Assembly (NCBI GenBank): GCA_025057115.1
Contig: JANWWZ010000014.1
Span: 1-64,000 of the forward strand
Origin: Bernardetiaceae bacterium
GTDB lineage: Bacteria > Bacteroidota > Bacteroidia > Cytophagales > Thermoflexibacteraceae
Direction: 5' to 3'
DNA length: 64,000 bases
Numbering within the stretch: the first letter of the stretch is position 1; every line of letters starts with the position of its first letter. Positions 24,808 to 33,912 of the stretch are shown here, one piece after another. The translations under genes were made by a program, and so were the position numbers. The notes under the pieces are model-generated. The model was not told where the DNA came from and made no database searches. It saw only the letters and a list, made by a program, of their open reading frames with translations.

Positions 24808-25809
24808 CTAAATGCGAAGGACATTGACAGTAAACAGTACATCTAACGCCAGTAGTAAAATAGCCATTAGGAGAAAATAGTAGTAGTTATTTGCAGCCAC
24901 GTCGAGCTGTTTTTTGTCCATTAGCTCACCTTCTATTTGGTTAATCGTTTCAAGGAGTCGGTTGGTTTCCACCTTATCCGCATTGATTTCAAAATACCTT
25001 CCCCCGGTGCGTTCAGCTATCTGTTCCATAAGTGTTCGATTCAAGCGCGTGATGACTTCCCTTCCAGAAGCATCGCGTTTAAAGCTCTTTTGGCGAAAGG
25101 GTATCCGACTTCCTTCTTCTGTGCCAACGCCCAAAGTAAAAATGCGAATTTCACTTTGCTCAAATTTCTTAATCATTTTATCTGTTTCCTCTCCAAAATC
25201 CTCTCCATCGCTTACAAGAAGGAGTAACTTAGCTTGGGGAGCTTTTTTTTGTACTTCGGTCGTATCGGTCAATTTTCGGTAGGCTAAGGCTAAAGGTTGA
25301 GCAAAATCAGTCCCTGTAGTGGGCAGCAAGGAAGTTTTGAGGGATTCAATCCAGGTCAGCAAGGCACTGCGATCATAAGTGAGGGGACATTGAATAAAGG
25401 CTTCTGTTGAAAATATAATCAACCCTACGCGATCATGGTTGAGATTTTCTACCAGTTTTTTTAACTCAAATTTGGCTTTTGCAAGGCGAGAAGGTGGTAC
25501 ATCGGTAGCATCCATGGAAAGGGACAGGTCAATAGCTATGTAAATATCCTTTCCTACGGATTTTATTTCTCTTTTTATCAATTCTCCAAAAGCAGGTCCC
25601 AGCAGGGCAACAATAAGCAAGCTGAAATATGCGCTTCGCAACGCAAACTTGATCCACAAGCCTTTGGCAGACACTTGTAGCAGTTTTGCCAGACGATAAA
25701 TGCGGAAAATATAAGCCCCGTACAGCAGCACAAAAACTGCTATAAAGATGGCATGGCTGATGCTAAAGGGATAAAACCACTGCATGACTGTGAGAAAGTT
25801 AGCTAACAA
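24808..25809 (-). CDS. VWA domain protein, BatA-like
   Basis: 333 residues: two membrane helices at about 17-40 and 56-75, a periplasmic or cytoplasmic von Willebrand A domain (about 88-290) and a C-terminal helix. The MIDAS metal site is complete: DLSLS at 94-98, the threonine in LPTTGTDF and the aspartate in VSDGEDF. BatA/BatB proteins belong to the Bat (Bacteroides aerotolerance) set with a MoxR ATPase and a DUF58 protein; none of these is next to it here. It overlaps the preceding methyltransferase gene by 7 bp. Confidence 0.85.
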   Translation of the reverse strand: MLANFLTVMQWFYPFSISHAIFIAVFVLLYGAYIFRIYRLAKLLQVSAKGLWIKFALRSAYFSLLIVALLGPAFGELIKREIKSVGKDIYIAIDLSLSMDATDVPPSRLAKAKFELKKLVENLNHDRVGLIIFSTEAFIQCPLTYDRSALLTWIESLKTSLLPTTGTDFAQPLALAYRKLTDTTEVQKKAPQAKLLLLVSDGEDFGEETDKMIKKFEQSEIRIFTLGVGTEEGSRIPFRQKSFKRDASGREVITRLNRTLMEQIAERTGGRYFEINADKVETNRLLETINQIEGELMDKKQLDVAANNYYYFLLMAILLLALDVLFTVNVLRI

Positions 25810-26711
25810 CTAGCAAAGCGGCAAAAGATACCTAAAGGCAATCGCCTTCCTGCCCGATCGGGGATGTAGAGCTCACCAATTTCCATGTGAGCTACTTGAC
25901 CAAAAATCGTGTTGACGAGATTTTCGACAATCAAAGGGGAAAAGCCCATAGAATAGAGGTTGATGATGCAAAAATGATGGTCAGGGTCGAGCAATTGAGC
26001 ACAATTTTTCAACAGGGGATTAAGGTGTTCTTCCAAGACCCATTTTTCTCCTTGGGGTCCGCGTCCATAAGCAGGAGGGTCTAAAATTAATCCTTGATAG
26101 CGATGCTGCCGCCGCACTTGGCGAGCTACAAACTTAGGGGCATCATCCACAATCCAACGGATGCCATCTAGCTGAGAGGCTTCCATGCTTTCGCGCGCCC
26201 AACTAATGACCTGTTTGACGGAATCTACGTGAGTTACCTCCGCTCCTGCATGGCGTGCTACCAAAGAAGCAATGCCTGTATAAGCAAATAAATTTAACAC
26301 TTTAGGTGATTTTACAGGCATTTGATTAATTTTTTCTGTAATATAATCCCAATTAACGGCTTGTTCGGGAAAAATGCCTACGTGCTTGAAAGAAGAAAGA
26401 GAAATTTTGAGTTTGAGTTGCAAATTTTTTCGCTGATAAGTCATCCACCACTTTTCGGGTTGGTCGGGGCGAGCATGCCATTTACCTCTTTCGTGTTCGG
26501 AAAAAGCATGATGGTTGTGGCGCCGAAACCATGCCCCTGCCATTTGTTGCCATTCTTCTTGAGCCAGTGCTTTGTCCCAAATTGCCTGTGGTTCAGGGCG
26601 AGCTACTATGTGTTTGCCAAATCGCTCTAGTTTTTCAAATCCACCGCTGTCTATTAACTCGTAATCAGGCCAGGGCACAGGAGTCAGTGCTTGGATGGGA
26701 AGCATGTTCAT
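25803..26711 (-). CDS. Class I SAM-dependent methyltransferase (RlmI/RlmK-like, 23S rRNA)
   Basis: 302 residues. The SAM site is VLNLFAYTGIASL (138-150) with the acidic HVDSVKQ after strand beta2, and the catalytic-side motif is LDPPAYGRGP (210-219), as in the rRNA cytosine/guanine methyltransferases of the RlmI and RlmK/L group. The N-terminal third is a short beta-rich domain rather than a PUA domain. Bacteroidota carry this shorter form. The modified base cannot be told from sequence. Confidence 0.82.
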   Translation of the reverse strand: MNMLPIQALTPVPWPDYELIDSGGFEKLERFGKHIVARPEPQAIWDKALAQEEWQQMAGAWFRRHNHHAFSEHERGKWHARPDQPEKWWMTYQRKNLQLKLKISLSSFKHVGIFPEQAVNWDYITEKINQMPVKSPKVLNLFAYTGIASLVARHAGAEVTHVDSVKQVISWARESMEASQLDGIRWIVDDAPKFVARQVRRQHRYQGLILDPPAYGRGPQGEKWVLEEHLNPLLKNCAQLLDPDHHFCIINLYSMGFSPLIVENLVNTIFGQVAHMEIGELYIPDRAGRRLPLGIFCRFASC

Positions 26712-26727
26712 TTTCGTCTAATGATGG

Positions 26728-26735
26728 CAAAACTA
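26728..26735 (-). promoter_or_regulatory. TAnnTTTG box of the methyltransferase gene
   Basis: On the minus strand TAGTTTTG ends 16 nt before the ATG at 26711. It touches the 3' end of the next gene upstream on the same strand; no -33 element is clear. Confidence 0.35.
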
Positions 26736-27116
26736 CTACGGAGTTACTATTGCCACTTCACTTACTCGGTGGAGCGCGTCGAAACGGATTTGTACATAGC
26801 GTCCCTTTTTAGCCATTTGTTTTTGGCATTGTTTGCCTTTTTCTATGTAATAATAGTAAAATTTCATGCCACGCTCTGCAATTTCTATGGCATCGGCTTT
26901 GCCCAACAACTTGCGCACTTGCATTTCGCCAAAGGCATGTTCAAGCAGATAGGGTTTAACAATATTTATAAAACCTTCCAGCTGTTTTTGCCGTAAATTG
27001 CTACATCCCATAGCATCGCTGCGCCAAGTGGAAAAGTCAAATCCCTTAGGTACCTCAGGCGCACCACAGCTAAAAATAATTAACCACAACGAGAAAAAAG
27101 TTGCTGTTTTTTTCAT
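26736..27116 (-). CDS. Small lipoprotein, BamE/SmpA-like fold possible
   Basis: 126 residues. MKKTATFFSLWLIIFSCGAPE is a lipoprotein signal with Cys17 or nearby. The mature part has two helices ending in FGEMQVRKLLGKADAIE and then beta-strand stretches YYYYIEKGKQC and VQIRFDALHRVSEVAIV. A helix-turn with a GKP/GKAD-like turn followed by strands is the layout of SmpA/BamE-type proteins, but similarity is weak and I would not assign a role. It diverges from the DUF4178 gene with only 43 bp between. Confidence 0.65.
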   Translation of the reverse strand: MKKTATFFSLWLIIFSCGAPEVPKGFDFSTWRSDAMGCSNLRQKQLEGFINIVKPYLLEHAFGEMQVRKLLGKADAIEIAERGMKFYYYYIEKGKQCQKQMAKKGRYVQIRFDALHRVSEVAIVTP

Positions 27117-27159
27117 ATTAGTTTATAACTTAGCAACAAAACTTACAAAGTAGAGCACT

Positions 27160-27699
27160 ATGTTTAGCTTCTTCAAGAAAAAAGACCCACAACCCCCTAA
27201 GCCGCATTACGACCCCACCAATATAAAAGTAACAGATCTGCGGATAGGTTTTGTTTTCGATTACGATATGAAAACCTGGGAAGTAATAGATGAATTTGAG
27301 TACGACTGGGGAGATCAATTATTTACCTATGAGTATAAAATCACCAGTGGTACTGAAACGCTTTACATGCGCGTAGAAGAAAGAGATAAATTGTATTGTA
27401 TTTTTACACAAAAATTACCCTTTGGAAAGTTAGGGCAAGCAGCGCAGTTTTTCAAGGAACGGCAAACAGGACCGAGTACTATTGATTTTGAGGGTACTAC
27501 CTTTTACTTAGACCGCGAAAAGCCCGGCTTTTTCAGAAGTACGCAAGATGAGGATTCTATCGAAGTAATTCAATGGGATTACTTGGACGACACTGGCAAG
27601 TACATCCTAGTAATCCACCAATGGGATGAGCAGGATTTTGAACTTTCAGTCGGGGTAGTGGAACCCGTTTCTGTGGTGAGCAACATCTTGCCACGTTAA
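27160..27699 (+). CDS. DUF4178 domain protein
   Basis: 179 residues, soluble, acidic, no signal peptide. After a basic N-terminus (FFKKKDPQPPKP) the central beta-rich part KTWEVIDEFEYDWGD ... EYKITSGTETLYMRVEE matches the DUF4178 pattern, where the domain binds an unknown ligand. Such genes commonly neighbour lipoprotein or polyamine genes in Bacteroidota. Here it is followed after 44 bp by a lipoprotein on the same strand, probably one operon. Confidence 0.75.
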   Translation: MFSFFKKKDPQPPKPHYDPTNIKVTDLRIGFVFDYDMKTWEVIDEFEYDWGDQLFTYEYKITSGTETLYMRVEERDKLYCIFTQKLPFGKLGQAAQFFKERQTGPSTIDFEGTTFYLDREKPGFFRSTQDEDSIEVIQWDYLDDTGKYILVIHQWDEQDFELSVGVVEPVSVVSNILPR

Positions 27700-27743
27700 A
27701 CTTAATTCTACAAATAAATGTTTTATATAAAACACAACTCAAG

Positions 27744-28514
27744 ATGCTAAAACGCATTTTATTCCTTTTACCTCTTGCCCTAGGGCTATTGGCTTGCAGC
27801 AGTGATAGTGAGCGAAAATTTGTCAAAACGCCACTAGACGAGCTGATTCGCAACTTAGATAGTGAAAAAAATTTCACTATCATTCTCTACGACATGGACA
27901 TAGAGGATAAAATTGGCAGCGATGTATATAAACACCGCTATAAAATCATTACGATGAAAGATAGCCTGCCTCAGGAGCAGATTACCGACTGGCTAGAAGT
28001 ACCCGAAAGTTTCTTTTTAGAGCACCAAAATAACATGGGCATGGAAATAGCCAGCAAGGTAAATGGCAAACTGAGCAAGGCGGTTGCTCCTCCAGGCTAC
28101 TCGCAATTTGTAGGCAATCCACAATACGGGCAATGGCGTACTGCCTCTGACGGAAGTTCTTTTTGGGAATTTTACGGCAAATACGCCATGATTAGCAACG
28201 TATTGGGGCTGGTAGGAAGCATGATTAACCGCAATAGCTATGAGGATTACTACTACAACTACCGCGGCACGCGACCTTATTACGGTTCTCTACCAGATGG
28301 CAGACCAGCCTATGGCACTTACTCTCCTCACGGAGAACGCGCCAACCCCGACTTCTACAGGCGCATAGGAAGTGCTAATGCCTTCAAAGAAAAAGTCAAT
28401 AGCCGTGTGATGCGTAGCGCACCTTCGGGTAGAACTAGCATAGGCAGTAGTAGCCAAAAATGGGGAAGCTCAAAACCTTCTAGTGGAGGCATCCGCATTC
28501 GCAGGAGAAGATAG
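27744..28514 (+). CDS. Lipoprotein of unknown function, Arg/Ser-rich C-terminus
   Basis: 256 residues with a clear lipoprotein signal (LALGLLACSSDSE, Cys18). The mature part begins LDELIRNLDSEKNFTIILYDMDIED and includes an aromatic segment rich in Gly and Tyr (YEDYYYNYRGTRPYYG) and a low-complexity basic tail ending IRIRRRR. I do not recognise the family beyond its likely co-expression with the DUF4178 gene 44 bp upstream. The basic tail could bind the envelope or an anionic polymer; this is a guess. Confidence 0.8.
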   Translation: MLKRILFLLPLALGLLACSSDSERKFVKTPLDELIRNLDSEKNFTIILYDMDIEDKIGSDVYKHRYKIITMKDSLPQEQITDWLEVPESFFLEHQNNMGMEIASKVNGKLSKAVAPPGYSQFVGNPQYGQWRTASDGSSFWEFYGKYAMISNVLGLVGSMINRNSYEDYYYNYRGTRPYYGSLPDGRPAYGTYSPHGERANPDFYRRIGSANAFKEKVNSRVMRSAPSGRTSIGSSSQKWGSSKPSSGGIRIRRRR

Positions 28515-28904
28515 AAACTGACTCATAAGACAAAACAAAAAACTAGAAAATCTTACAGTGTAATTAAAATTTTCATTTTGCATTTTACCGATTTTTTATA
28601 CGCTGAGTTGTCCTAAAACAAGAAGGCACTTTTTTTTAATCTACCCTACAAGTTCTTCAACTCCCCTAAATTTAAACCCATTGCTAGCCAGGAGAAACCC
28701 AATTTCCTCCTTGCTACAATGGGAATTTTGTATGTAATTAATTAAATATGTTTAACTGTTATTGCGTAGGATTTTTTACCAGTAACTACAACTTTCTCAG
28801 CGTCGAGGTAAGTAAAAAATGAATAGAGAATTTTGTTCTGACGTTATTTGTTTTCCTTAAAGAAAAAATTTGCCTTCATTTGAGAGATAACCTAAAAGAG
28901 ACCT
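28515..28904. other. AT-rich intergenic region with a long hairpin
   Basis: 390 bp without a gene. It contains the imperfect hairpin described at 28677-28723 and an otherwise AT-rich sequence that should hold the promoter of the large T9SS protein. I did not find a clean TAnnTTTG box. Confidence 0.6.
28677..28723. terminator. Long imperfect hairpin, possible terminator or RNA element
   Basis: CCCATTG, TAGC and AGGAG on the left pair in order with CTCCT, GCTA and CAATGGG on the right, 16 bp in total with one bulged C, one mismatch and a 12-nt loop. AATTTTG follows. It lies 163 bp after the preceding lipoprotein gene, far for a simple terminator. Confidence 0.45.
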
Positions 28905-31900
28905 ATGAAGAAAATTCTTACTACTATCTGTTTGTGGGTAATAAGCACGGCAATTTTTGCTCAAATAGACAAAGTCTTTTAGTTTGCCGCCCCCGATCTG
29001 AGCGCAAGTCATAAGGATGAGCCCATCCACATTCGAATTACCGCTTTTCAGAATCCCGCTCAGGTAACTATTGACATGCCTGCGGACCCTTCTTTCATGC
29101 CCATAGTGCTCAACGTAGCGGCAAATTCCACCTTATCTTATAACCTAACCTCTTTCAAATCTCAAATAGAAACTGCCTTTGATCCAGGAGGTTCTCCTGC
29201 GCCTACGGATAACTCTGGTATCCGCATTGTTTCTACAGAGCGAGTAGCAGTCTATTACGAGGCTGCCCCTAGCCTTAACGTAGATATTTTTTCATTAAAA
29301 GGTAAAAATGCTTTGGGCACAAAGTTTTACGTACCCTTAATACGAGGCGTATGGAACTTACAAGGACTTAACACGCAGGCCCATGCCGGTTTTATCGTCG
29401 TGGCTACTGAAGATAATACAACAGTTACCATTACCCCTACTACTTCTTTAGAAGGAGGAAGGACGGCTGGAGTTCCATACACGGTAACCCTTGATAAAGG
29501 TCAAACTTACGCTGGTACTATTAAAGGTCCTACCAGTGGCACGGGAGCGATGAACAATATACCTGCGGGTACTCTTATTACCTCCAACAAGGCTATTGCT
29601 GTTACCATGTTCCACGACTCTATGCGCACTTCTGCAGGAGGATGTTACGACCTGGCGGGAGACCAATTAGTGCCAGTGGATTTGCTAGGAACTAAGTACG
29701 TCGTAGTGCGCACTTTCTTAGGTTTTGACAGTAACAATAACTATACTTCTAGCAACCCTGAACGGGTAGTGATCATGGCAGTGGAAGCTGGTACCACTGT
29801 TACTGTGGAAAATACAACTACTACTACTTTCACTCTGTCATCGCCAGGCAATTATCAGGTAATAAGTCTGAGCGATGGGCAACCGCGCACCTCTATTCAG
29901 TCTAACAAACCTATTTACGTTGTTCACTTAGGCGGCTTTGGTTGTGAAACAGGGGCAGCTATTTTGCCACCCATCGAATGTACAGGCTCCAAAAGAGTGC
30001 AGTTTGTCAGAGCAAGTAATGAGTTTTTGGGGTTGATTCTCGTTACTAAAAATGGCTTTCAAAGTCATTTTAGCTTGAATGGCAATCCCGTTGATACTGA
30101 TATTCCTGCAAGCAGTTTTCACCCCGTGCCAGGCTTAACTGACTATGTAGCAGCTAGAATAGACAATATTCCTACCTCCACAATTCCTAGCGGTGGCATA
30201 GGTACTGTAACTAATACGCAAGGATTGTTTCATTTAGCGGTTATTCATGGGGGAGAGACTACAGGTACGCGATACGGCTATTTTTCCAATTTCAATATGG
30301 TTAATTTAGGTCCAGATATTAACGTAGCATTTGGTTCTAACATTACTCTAGATGCTGGACCTGATGGCATCAGCTACAAATGGCGCAAGGTACCTGACCC
30401 CACTATCTTAGCTACTACTCAACAATATACTATCTCGGTTAATTCGCGTGGAACCTACTGGGTAGAAGTGGATATAGGAGGTTGTGTGTACAAAGACACT
30501 ATTTGTATTGGTACATTCGAATACGTTTGGGAAGGCAATGATAACGACGACGTATATGACCAAGACAACTGGAGCAAGCCTTGTGGAGTAAATACGTTAC
30601 CCACTTGTAACGATGACATAATTATCCCTTCTCTTGCGCTAAGAAAAGGCAATTATTGGCCTAACTTCACTGGCATCTATAACATGCGGGATATCCATAT
30701 TTATCCCAGTGGGGTTATCAATATTGCAGCAAATGCTACCTTGAATATTTGCCGACATTTTTGGCATGAAGGACAAATAAATGCTCACAACACAAGCACA
30801 ATCGTCTTCAAAGGCAACCAAACTTCGCAAAATTACTTGCGCAACAATAGCACTGCCTCAGGAGAATTTCCCAACGTAGTTCTCAATAATACTACTACTC
30901 CCGCGGGAACTATTCAAGATGCTTATTTGCGCATTTTAGATGGAACCAACTTCGGCAATCTCATAGTCAAAGATGGTTGTACGTTCACTTTTCAAAATGG
31001 GTATGTAATTACCGAAGGTGCGCGCGAGCTGGTGATTAAAAACCGCCATCCCAATGCAATCACAGGATTTAATGCCAATCGTTTTGTAGCGGGACGCCTG
31101 AGAAGATACATTAATCCAACGGGCACCTATCACTTTCCAGTGGGATTGGTCAAAACGCAAATTACTAATGTGCAAAACAATTTACCTGGCACCTTACAAA
31201 ACATGGAGGCCAATGACTGGCAAACAGCTTCTTACTCAGCAGGCATAGGCACTACTAAAGTGCTCAACTTCAATGAAAACGTAGGTGGTGATCCCATAAA
31301 TGAGTTTATTCTCTTACCCAATAGTGTTCGTCTTTTAGGAGCAAGTCCGCGCACAGTAGAATTTTGGGCAAGACCTAGAACAAATACTAATCTTTATCAG
31401 GCGGGTGGATTTTTTACCTTAGGACAAGTTCAAACAAGTAATGATTTCGGAATGGTAGTGCGAACAGATCAAAACAGATTATATGTGCGGTTGGGGGGAG
31501 CTGCTGACTTTGATTTTGTTCCCACTGTATCGATGCTTAACACATGGCGGCATTATGCTATTACTTATGACACGGACAAAGTGCGAGTTTACGTAGATGG
31601 CAACTTAGTCAAGGAAGAGCCGCGCATTCTCAACACTACTGTGCCAGGTGCTATTCCCAACGTCAATATGATCGCTCGGTGGAATAACTCTTACTTCAAT
31701 GGGCAAATCGATGAAGTGCGCATCTGGAGCGTTGCTCGCACACAGGCACAAATTAATCAGTACCGCAATCAACTTCTAGACCGTTGCAATTTACCTCCTG
31801 GGCTAATAGCTTATTACGATTTTGAGGAAGGCAGTGATAATACAGTGTACCACAAAACACAAACTTGCACTAATCAAAAAATTTATGAGCTCGCAAGAAT

Positions 31901-32840
31901 TGAGTTTACTCAACCTGCTGGAGTAGACAATCTACTGGCTTACTTTAATGAGTTTACTACAGTGCCTTCATTTTCTGGCAATGACTGCAGTACTATCTGG
32001 GGCTGCCAACTACTTAATCACGGCTATTGGACCATTAACGCCTATGATGCCAACAACAACCAGCTTACGACCTCTGGCGCTTACAACATGACCTTGTACA
32101 ATACTAACTACACTAATTTTGCAGATTGCGATAACAATTCTCTAACTCCTTCGCGAACTACTATTGTTCGGCGCTCCAATAGTAGCAATCCATGGCAACT
32201 ACCTGCAGGCAGCCACTGTATCGATTTCTTGCCTACTCAAACTGCTCGCGGAAACATGACAGGCTTTTCCGATTTTGGCATTGCACAAGGTGATGGCATA
32301 TTGCCAGCAGAACTAGTAGAGTTTACTGCCCGCCGAGCTAATTGGCAAGTAATAGTCCACTGGAAAACTGCCTCAGAAATCAATTTCAATCATTTTGTTT
32401 TAGAGAAAAGCTACAATGGAGAAGAATTTTTCACCATTGCCCAATTGCCAAGCAAAGGAGTCAGTGGGGGTGTGTACAGCCATGTGGATGGAGAGCCGCG
32501 TCGAATCAATTACTATCGCCTTAAAATGATTGACATAGATGGTTCTTATCAATACTCCAAAATGATTGCCGTTTCGCTTGATGATTGGCAACCTGCTCTT
32601 CGAGTATATCCCAATCCAGCACAAGCAAGCGGAGGGTTCTTTATCAACGAGTCTGCCGAGAAAATTAACCGCGTTGCAGTATATAACCTTCTGGGTCAAG
32701 TAATTTACGAAGGAAAGCCCAAACTCCACCCCACTTTAAGCGACGCGTATGTAGAAGCTTCTCTTTCTGCTGGTACTTACGCAGTTGCTTTACAACTCAT
32801 CTCGGGTGAAACGGTAACTTTAAGATTAACGGTCAAGTAA
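28905..32840 (+). CDS. T9SS-exported surface protein with IgGFc-binding-like and LamG domains, interrupted by an in-frame TAG
   Basis: The intact reading frame begins at 29076 (1254 residues), but the same frame extends upstream to an ATG at 28905 that encodes a textbook signal peptide (MKKILTTICLWVISTAIFAQ), broken by TAG at 28980. Without the stop the protein would be 1311 residues: signal; IgGFc-binding-type N-terminal region (about 60-440, with ERVAVYYEAAPS and HAGFIVVATEDNTTVTITP); a LamG/concanavalin-like domain (about 800-960, with WRHYAITYDTDKVRVYVDG and FNGQIDEVRIW); and a C-terminal type A T9SS sorting domain (VYPNPAQASGG ... LSAGTYAVAL). Export needs the signal peptide, so as read the gene would be non-functional unless the TAG is suppressed, a phase-variable state, or a sequence error. 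Confidence 0.85.
28980..28982 (+). other. Premature amber codon after the signal peptide
   Basis: Codon 26 of the frame starting at 28905 is TAG, in the context KVF-TAG-FAAPDLS. Homologous starts of this protein type usually carry an aromatic residue here (FWF), so a TGG-to-TAG change is the simplest explanation. TAG also ends the gene at 28514 and that at 22836, so the codon is a normal stop in this genome. Confidence 0.85.
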
Positions 32841-32859
32841 TTTGCGGCAAACTTTAAAG

Positions 32860-32900
32860 AAGACATGCGCAGTAATTGCTGTGCATGTCTTTTTGTTTTT
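32860..32900 (+). terminator. Rho-independent terminator after the T9SS surface protein
   Basis: AAGACATGCGCAG (32860-32872) pairs with CTGTGCATGTCTT (32879-32891), 13 bp with one G-U, around a 6-nt loop, followed by TTTTGTTTTTG. It lies 20 nt after the stop codon and is the strongest terminator in the window. Confidence 0.88.
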
Positions 32901-33000: not shown

Positions 33001-33912
33001 ATGCGCATTGTATTCATGGGCACACCAGAGTTTGCCGTCCCTTCTTTAGAGATTTTGCTCCAACATGGCTATTGTATTGCTGCTGTGGTTACTGCTGTTG
33101 ATAAGCCAGCAGGGCGCGGGCTCAAACTGCAACCTTGTGCCGTTAAAATAGCAGCTCAGCAAAGAGGATTGCCCATTTTACAACCCGAAAAACTCAAAAG
33201 CCCCGACTTTTTGGAGCAGTTGCAGCGCTTGCAAGCCGATCTACAAGTGGTAGTTGCCTTTCGCATGCTGCCAGAAGCAGTTTGGGCAATGCCGCCCCTG
33301 GGCACCTTCAACCTTCATGCTTCGCTTTTGCCTCAATATCGCGGGGCAGCTCCTATTCATTGGGCAATTATCAACGGAGAAACTCAAACAGGTGTTACGA
33401 CGTTTTTTATTAATCATCAAATAGATACAGGCGAGATCATTTTTCAAGAAAAAGAACCTATTTACCGCCACGACACTGCTGGAACTCTTTGCCAAAGGCT
33501 TATGCACAAAGGCGCTTCCTTAGTGCTAAAAACAGTGCAAGCCATTGAAAAAGGACAAGTAAAAACCATCCCTCAAGCTCAAGTGGAAGAAGGAGTGCTC
33601 AAACTTGCTCCTAAAATTTTTCGACACCACTGCCAAATTGATTTTCAACAATCTGCAGAAAGCATTTTTAACCTTGTTCGCGGACTTAACCCTCAGCCAG
33701 GAGCTTGGGCGGAGATCAATGGAAAGACTTACAAAATTTACAGCGTTATTCCTTTTGCTGATAAAGTTTACCAAGCAGGGCATTGGCACACTGATGGAAA
33801 AAACTTTTTACACATCGGCGCTGCAGATGGCTACATCGCCGTAGAAGAGCTGCAACCAGAAGGCAAAAAGCGCATGAATATCAAGGAGTTTTTGCGCGGC
33901 AATTCCCCTTAA
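33001..33912 (+). CDS. fmt: Methionyl-tRNA formyltransferase
   Basis: 303 residues. It formylates initiator Met-tRNA with 10-formyl-THF. The N-terminal domain has MGTPEFAVPSLE (6-17), the catalytic trio Asn104-His106 in NLHASLLPQYRG and Asp in HQIDTGEI (about 142); the C-terminal OB-fold domain begins about residue 208 (FNLVRGLNPQPGAWAE). It stands alone between the two damaged exported-protein genes; no def gene is adjacent. Confidence 0.95.
   Translation: MRIVFMGTPEFAVPSLEILLQHGYCIAAVVTAVDKPAGRGLKLQPCAVKIAAQQRGLPILQPEKLKSPDFLEQLQRLQADLQVVVAFRMLPEAVWAMPPLGTFNLHASLLPQYRGAAPIHWAIINGETQTGVTTFFINHQIDTGEIIFQEKEPIYRHDTAGTLCQRLMHKGASLVLKTVQAIEKGQVKTIPQAQVEEGVLKLAPKIFRHHCQIDFQQSAESIFNLVRGLNPQPGAWAEINGKTYKIYSVIPFADKVYQAGHWHTDGKNFLHIGAADGYIAVEELQPEGKKRMNIKEFLRGNSP

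Follow-up and report, generated by a model that had tools for sequence, protein, structure and literature searches.

Bacterial genes interrupted by a nonsense mutation carry one stop in a frame that is open elsewhere, have intact homologues, and show the stop one transition away from the codon that is usual at that position. A published screening of genetic codes (PMC8629427) notes that the in-frame stops of pseudogenes mostly derive from codons like UGG through one transition each, and that they can resemble a genetic code in which a stop is read as Trp. Proteins of the Cytophagales and their relatives that combine the domain PF17517 with a type IX secretion system (T9SS) tail share the order PF17517, LamG-type domain, and T9SS domain, and carry a motif of the FW(F)AAP type after the leader. 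Where UAG is reassigned or suppressed, TAG stands within coding frames, an example being code 15 in crAss-like phages. A gene at positions 28905 to 32840 of the window (the whole 64,000-nucleotide stretch of DNA that was analyzed; the interrupted gene and its parts lie on the + strand) resembled the nonsense-interrupted genes in all of the features named above and differed from them in nothing essential, with a loss of function that is presumed. Its TAG fits the published pseudogene pattern, standing one transition from the Trp codon. The domain order and the motif after the leader were those of the PF17517 proteins with T9SS tails, but the window copy differed from them in having the TAG between leader and body.

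The frame started with MKKILTTICLWVISTAIFAQIDKVF and ended at a TAA at 32838 to 32840, with the TAG as codon 26. The 5' end of the gene (28905 to 28979) encoded a leader resembling a signal peptide, MKKILTTICLWVISTAIFAQ followed by IDKVF, which aligned with the N termini of relatives; the call was made by eye from KK, a hydrophobic stretch, and A-F-A before Q. Downstream of the TAG (28980 to 28982), the remainder of the frame (28983 to 32840) comprised 1,285 codons plus the TAA, with no second stop. Three regions of this remainder matched known domains. An IgGFc_binding domain (PF17517) at 29307 to 30167 covered residues 109 to 395 after the stop (145.8 bits against a cut-off of 25.6; E = 2.2e-42), and a Laminin_G_3/concanavalin-like domain (PF13385) at 31314 to 31757 covered residues 778 to 925 (E = 1.3e-22). 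At 32604 to 32807, residues 1208 to 1275 matched a T9SS type A sorting domain, narrowly in both databases (PF18962, 27.5 bits with a cut-off of 27; TIGR04183, 25.2 bits with a cut-off of 23). The original prediction of a signal peptide, an in-frame TAG, and 1,285 further open codons through IgGFc-binding-like, LamG, and T9SS sorting regions was therefore borne out in each of these parts. Binding of IgG Fc by the protein is putative and is suggested by the family name of PF17517.

T9SS cargo carries its signal peptide on the same polypeptide as the body, and this was not the case for the window gene, in which the TAG separates the two. A plain ORF caller placed the start of the gene at the first ATG after the stop (29076), 31 codons past the TAG, giving an ORF of 1,254 amino acids (29076 to 32840) that lacks a signal peptide and could be a restart product. 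Directly 3' of the gene, a terminator-like hairpin with 17 pairs and a T tail was found (32857 to 32894, +). Terminator-like sites numbered 5 against the 4.8 expected in shuffled sequences, so the argument for this hairpin comes from its stem length only.

The sequences on the two sides of the TAG belong to one gene and are not a chance arrangement, because an intact paralogue used as a query (residues 10 to 1315) aligned across both, from 28905 to 32837, with the single TAG inside; the frame was thus open and homologous on either side. The motif interrupted by the TAG is of the AQIDKEFWFAAP type. The comparison took in 48 homologous loci, of which 47 extended over the TAG position; Trp was found in 46, and the remaining one is the window with its stop. 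In at least three pairs of loci, the N termini were identical, probably because one genome is present in two collections, so that the independent loci number fewer than 47. A first listing of the motif permitted, by design, only W or a stop at this position, and the 47-locus count was made free of that constraint. The window gene lies on an 83.9-kb contig (C5) of a genome of 2,995,891 bases in 86 contigs (G000). The intact paralogue lies on contig C85 of the same genome, was 58% identical to the window copy over its length, and had leader and body on one polypeptide, as judged by eye. The original prediction was made by a reader unaware of this second copy.

We consider it probable (about 0.76) that a gene for a T9SS-exported surface protein, present here in two copies, has recently suffered a nonsense mutation in the window copy. 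One stop in 1,311 codons, the intact paralogue, and the conservation of Trp at the affected position in relatives were counted in favor of this reading, as were the ordinary use of TAG as a stop in this genome, the lack of a second stop, and the departures of the window copy from residues fixed in four relatives, all described below. The original prediction had offered a recent lesion, an error, or a programmed switch; the single stop, the paralogue, and the Trp residue strengthened the first, error stays as a rival, and the switch lost ground in that no device for it was found. After such a mutation, translation from 28905 would be expected to end after 25 codons, and for that reason no exported protein would come from the window copy. 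At most, a leaderless fragment might be made from the ATG at 29076, and it would be barred from the Sec/T9SS route; the protein itself could be supplied by the intact C85 copy. We infer that the TAG exists in the cells and eliminates the product, and that the loss is tolerable owing to the C85 copy.

Two of the observations that were counted against a recent nonsense mutation in a duplicated gene are described here. The first concerns the positions of the two copies. Five genes upstream of the window gene (24808 to 28514) were also found by tblastn beside the single homologue in three genomes of sister species in the same genus (G001, G002, and G003), each of which has one full-length copy. 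It is the window copy, not the C85 copy, that occupies this common neighborhood, so that the syntenic copy is broken and the intact one stands elsewhere, while the simple expectation that a spare copy decays predicts otherwise. The downstream order differed from that in the sister species, where fmt (33001 to 33912 in the window) is on other contigs, and the genes flanking the C85 copy had no match in the sister stretches examined (16 to 18 kb each). The sister-species copies were 63 to 66% identical to the C85 copy and 54 to 58% identical to the window copy, a difference that was counted in favor of the nonsense mutation. The C85 copy is thus the closer of the two to the sister genes in sequence, and the window copy holds the conserved locus (24808 to 32840); gene conversion or replacement could be the cause of this mismatch. 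A tree left the branching order of the window copy, the C85 copy, and the sister genes undecided, with a longer branch for the window copy (0.50 versus 0.28). The sequence TANNTTTG, which we take to be a promoter box motif, was compared upstream of the copies: the C85 copy had it at a distance of 258 bases and the G001 copy at 27 bases, and it was absent upstream of the window gene and of the copies in G002, G003, and a further genome of the family, G010.

The second observation is an early TAG in G010. The only full-length homologue found in this genome, which is also the only homologue in the family outside the window's genus, is itself interrupted in frame by a TAG, at codon 22 of 1,299 (contig C7; L091, L122:11253-11255, − strand), and no spare copy was found that would explain it. 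Relatives carry Gln at this position, which lies at the leader cleavage site. The gene was present in 5 of the 13 genomes of the family that were searched, in 6 copies, 2 of which (window and G010) contained an in-frame TAG. Across the order, 51 of 390 genomes had matches, and among the 66 matches listed, a stop inside the match occurred in the window and G010 only. When matches longer than 1,000 residues were considered (n = 21), 2 of 6 were interrupted within the family versus 0 of 15 outside it (Fisher test, P = 0.07). Ten of these 15 were inspected as loci and had no stop between leader and motif; because several matches start after the leader, leader stops could have been missed in some of them. 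If stops were evenly spread, the chance that a second one would fall within the first 26 to 35 codons is 2.0 to 2.7%. When a large exported protein is lost, an early stop may simply do less harm than any other route.

Further interrupted genes were sought in samples of both genomes. In the sample from the window genome, a leader-like peptide ending at a 5' stop was found for 7 of 325 frames, of which only the window gene was kept by eye; the six others were judged, also by eye, to be sequence lying 5' of a gene with an ordinary start. In the G010 sample, there were 4 such cases among 282 frames, and 2 were kept by eye, the homologue described above and a gene for a BsuBI/PstI-type restriction endonuclease. 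The latter (contig C69; L235:10511, − strand) has an in-frame TAG near its start, with matches to PF17728 on either side, the first part scoring below the cut-off. Two other scans for interrupted genes were insensitive, one missing the window gene through a too-strict coding threshold and the other, a ranking by codon usage, omitting it from the 14 shown, so their negative results mean little. In genome G161 (C198:1475-2927), a homologue was found in two adjoining pieces with 13 bases between them, a pattern that a frameshift might produce.

The selective history of the window copy was compared with that of the C85 copy. Relative-rate tests, also counted against the favored reading, did not point to a higher rate of change in the window copy (window/C85 changes of 129/116 with G010, 101/97 with G013, and 98/107 with G032 as the third sequence). 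Departures from residues fixed in four relatives of the family were more numerous in the window copy (99 of 525, versus 68 of 525 in the C85 copy; Fisher test, P = 0.011), and for residues fixed in all 14 other sequences, the corresponding values were 15 and 10 of 205 (P = 0.41). Because these results are mixed, no long relaxation is claimed, and it is doubtful that constraint on the window copy was relaxed before the TAG arose. Stop-making changes account for 440 of the 11,565 possible point changes in the frame, or 3.15% after transition weighting. With a fixed transition bias assumed and insertions and deletions ignored, the lack of a second stop is compatible with an upper limit of about 95 neutral substitutions (2.5% per site) after the end of constraint.

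A TAG would also appear in the assembled gene through an error of sequencing or assembly, or if the consensus of a mixed population had taken up a minority allele, since a single base decides and the genome is a draft. This explanation is rather unlikely. The gene lies at 29 to 33 kb of its contig, remote from the ends. It was also the sole case of a leader, a stop, and a coding continuation, as judged by eye, among the 339 frames of a 464-kb sample of the genome, which indicates that single-base errors that make stops are uncommon in this assembly. A mix-up of the two copies is unlikely because the C85 copy differs at 42% of residues.

The TAG might instead be decoded, with some ribosomes inserting Trp or another residue, so that a low level of full-length protein would be exported, by accident or by design. 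The frame beyond the stop is fully open, Trp would restore the residue conserved in the family, and in another genome of the family, G010, this gene is likewise interrupted early by TAG. The decoding apparatus argued against this. Release factor RF1 was present in the window genome (prfA, 515.8 bits against a cut-off of 423.25), and TAG terminated 70 of the 339 longest open frames in the 464-kb sample, the window included, and 8 of 44 genes picked by hand from the ORF list of the window. No CUA anticodon was found among 34 tRNAs named by ARAGORN in that genome; the search yielded 37 matches, 34 of them above the cut-off, and the set is incomplete, since tRNA-Ile was not recovered and scoring extended to 150 of the 164 first-look candidates. 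A scan for anticodon-loop patterns of the CUA type carried no signal, because the reversed control gave more matches (30) than the true sequence (23). Two tRNA-like candidates with a CUA loop, on C13 and C7, were identified with Rfam and ARAGORN as tRNA-Arg(UCU) and tRNA-Glu, respectively. G010 likewise had RF1, used TAG to terminate 71 of 291 sampled frames, and showed no CUA anticodon among the tRNAs named by ARAGORN, with 3 of 42 Rfam matches left unnamed. Genomes with reassigned UAG do not use TAG as a stop and lack RF1, and the window genome, while sharing with them a TAG within a coding frame, differed in both respects. UAG as a sense codon was rejected on the presence of RF1, the terminal use of TAG, and the lack of a CUA anticodon among the recovered tRNAs, and the suggestion that this TAG is read as Trp gained no positive support.

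Occasional readthrough at the site itself is very improbable. RNA folds around the TAG were unremarkable, being no better than those of shuffled sequences (z = 0.38 and 0.03), and the TAGs of the window and G010 occupy different codons (26 and 22) at positions where relatives have Trp and Gln, respectively, so that there is no shared recoding site. A broader form of this idea, in which the family keeps early ambers, at differing codons near the leader cleavage site, so that UAG throttles a costly export and rare readthrough supplies the full-length protein to a few cells or as a few molecules, with the window and G010 as independent examples, is likewise highly unlikely.

In G010, two tRNA-like genes (L188:70-188 on contig C115 and L190:89-207 on contig C47) scored above the Rfam cut-off, and neither was named as a tRNA by ARAGORN. 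In the Rfam alignment, they have long anticodon-arm stretches of 57 and 59 bases, of which about 27 bases are common to both; allowing up to 3 mismatches, this sequence was found at no other site in G010 and was absent from G000, G002, and G006. The prfB gene of the window genome (contig C14; L150, about 2516-2511, − strand) carries AGGAGG...CTTTGAC, presumably the usual programmed frameshift site.

Phase-variable contingency loci resemble the window gene in encoding surface proteins and in being interrupted early, as the G010 gene also is, and the TAG could in principle be one state of an on/off switch reversed by point mutation. The chance of this is slight. Such loci differ from the window gene in having a slippage tract, an invertible segment, or another device, and none was found at the TAG: between 28500 and 29400, only two short direct-repeat pairs and an A+T-rich palindrome (28731 to 28748), well upstream, were detected. 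A substitution seldom reverts by a simple back-mutation. Those portions of the phase-variation literature that were available concern repeats, homopolymers, inversion, or methylation. The proposal of a surface protein with an on/off state was therefore not supported.

A leaderless protein translated from the ATG at 29076 and put to some intracellular use is barely credible. The ORF of 1,254 amino acids does begin there, and diguanylate cyclase genes of Shigella with nonsense mutations yield active protein from later starts (PMC11327459). The window product would lack the leader yet retain the T9SS tail and domains of extracellular type, which makes a cytoplasmic use improbable. Editing of A to I in the mRNA can be set aside almost entirely: TadA editing of mRNA is real in bacteria (PMC12255301), and inosine at the middle base of codon 26 would restore the family's conserved Trp, but that editing requires TACG, most often as YTACGAA, within a stem-loop, whereas the window site reads TTTTAGTTTG, has no TACG, and places its A in a pair of the weak predicted fold (z = 0.38) and not in a loop.

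The structure predicted for the first 540 residues after the TAG had a mean pLDDT of 86.9. Fold matches listed from the PDB were Ig-like only and had low TM-scores; several were to grappling hook protein A of Aureispira, and the PF17517 part was barely covered. In a second fold comparison, the listed alignments lay mostly at model residues 439 to 513 (best Z, 7.9), and a sequence search of the PDB gave one match, 4dqa_A, to the LamG-type region. Limited literature searches found nothing on IgGFc-binding proteins and type IX secretion in Bacteroidetes or on the window gene, and nothing relevant on pseudogene readthrough in Salmonella. Among database sequences, SACF01000043.1 (L131), titled as an alphaproteobacterial metagenome-assembled genome, encodes a close relative of proteins titled Bacteroidales and is possibly from a mislabeled bin.

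If the window copy is, as we favor, a recently interrupted member of a pair, the gene now called at 29076 without a leader should be marked as interrupted in the annotation. The locus also cautions against inferring recoding from an in-frame TAG that replaces a conserved Trp. Should the early ambers of the window and G010 genes, both in one family, be more than a coincidence, they would point to a cheap silencing of large exported proteins before the secretion machinery is engaged.
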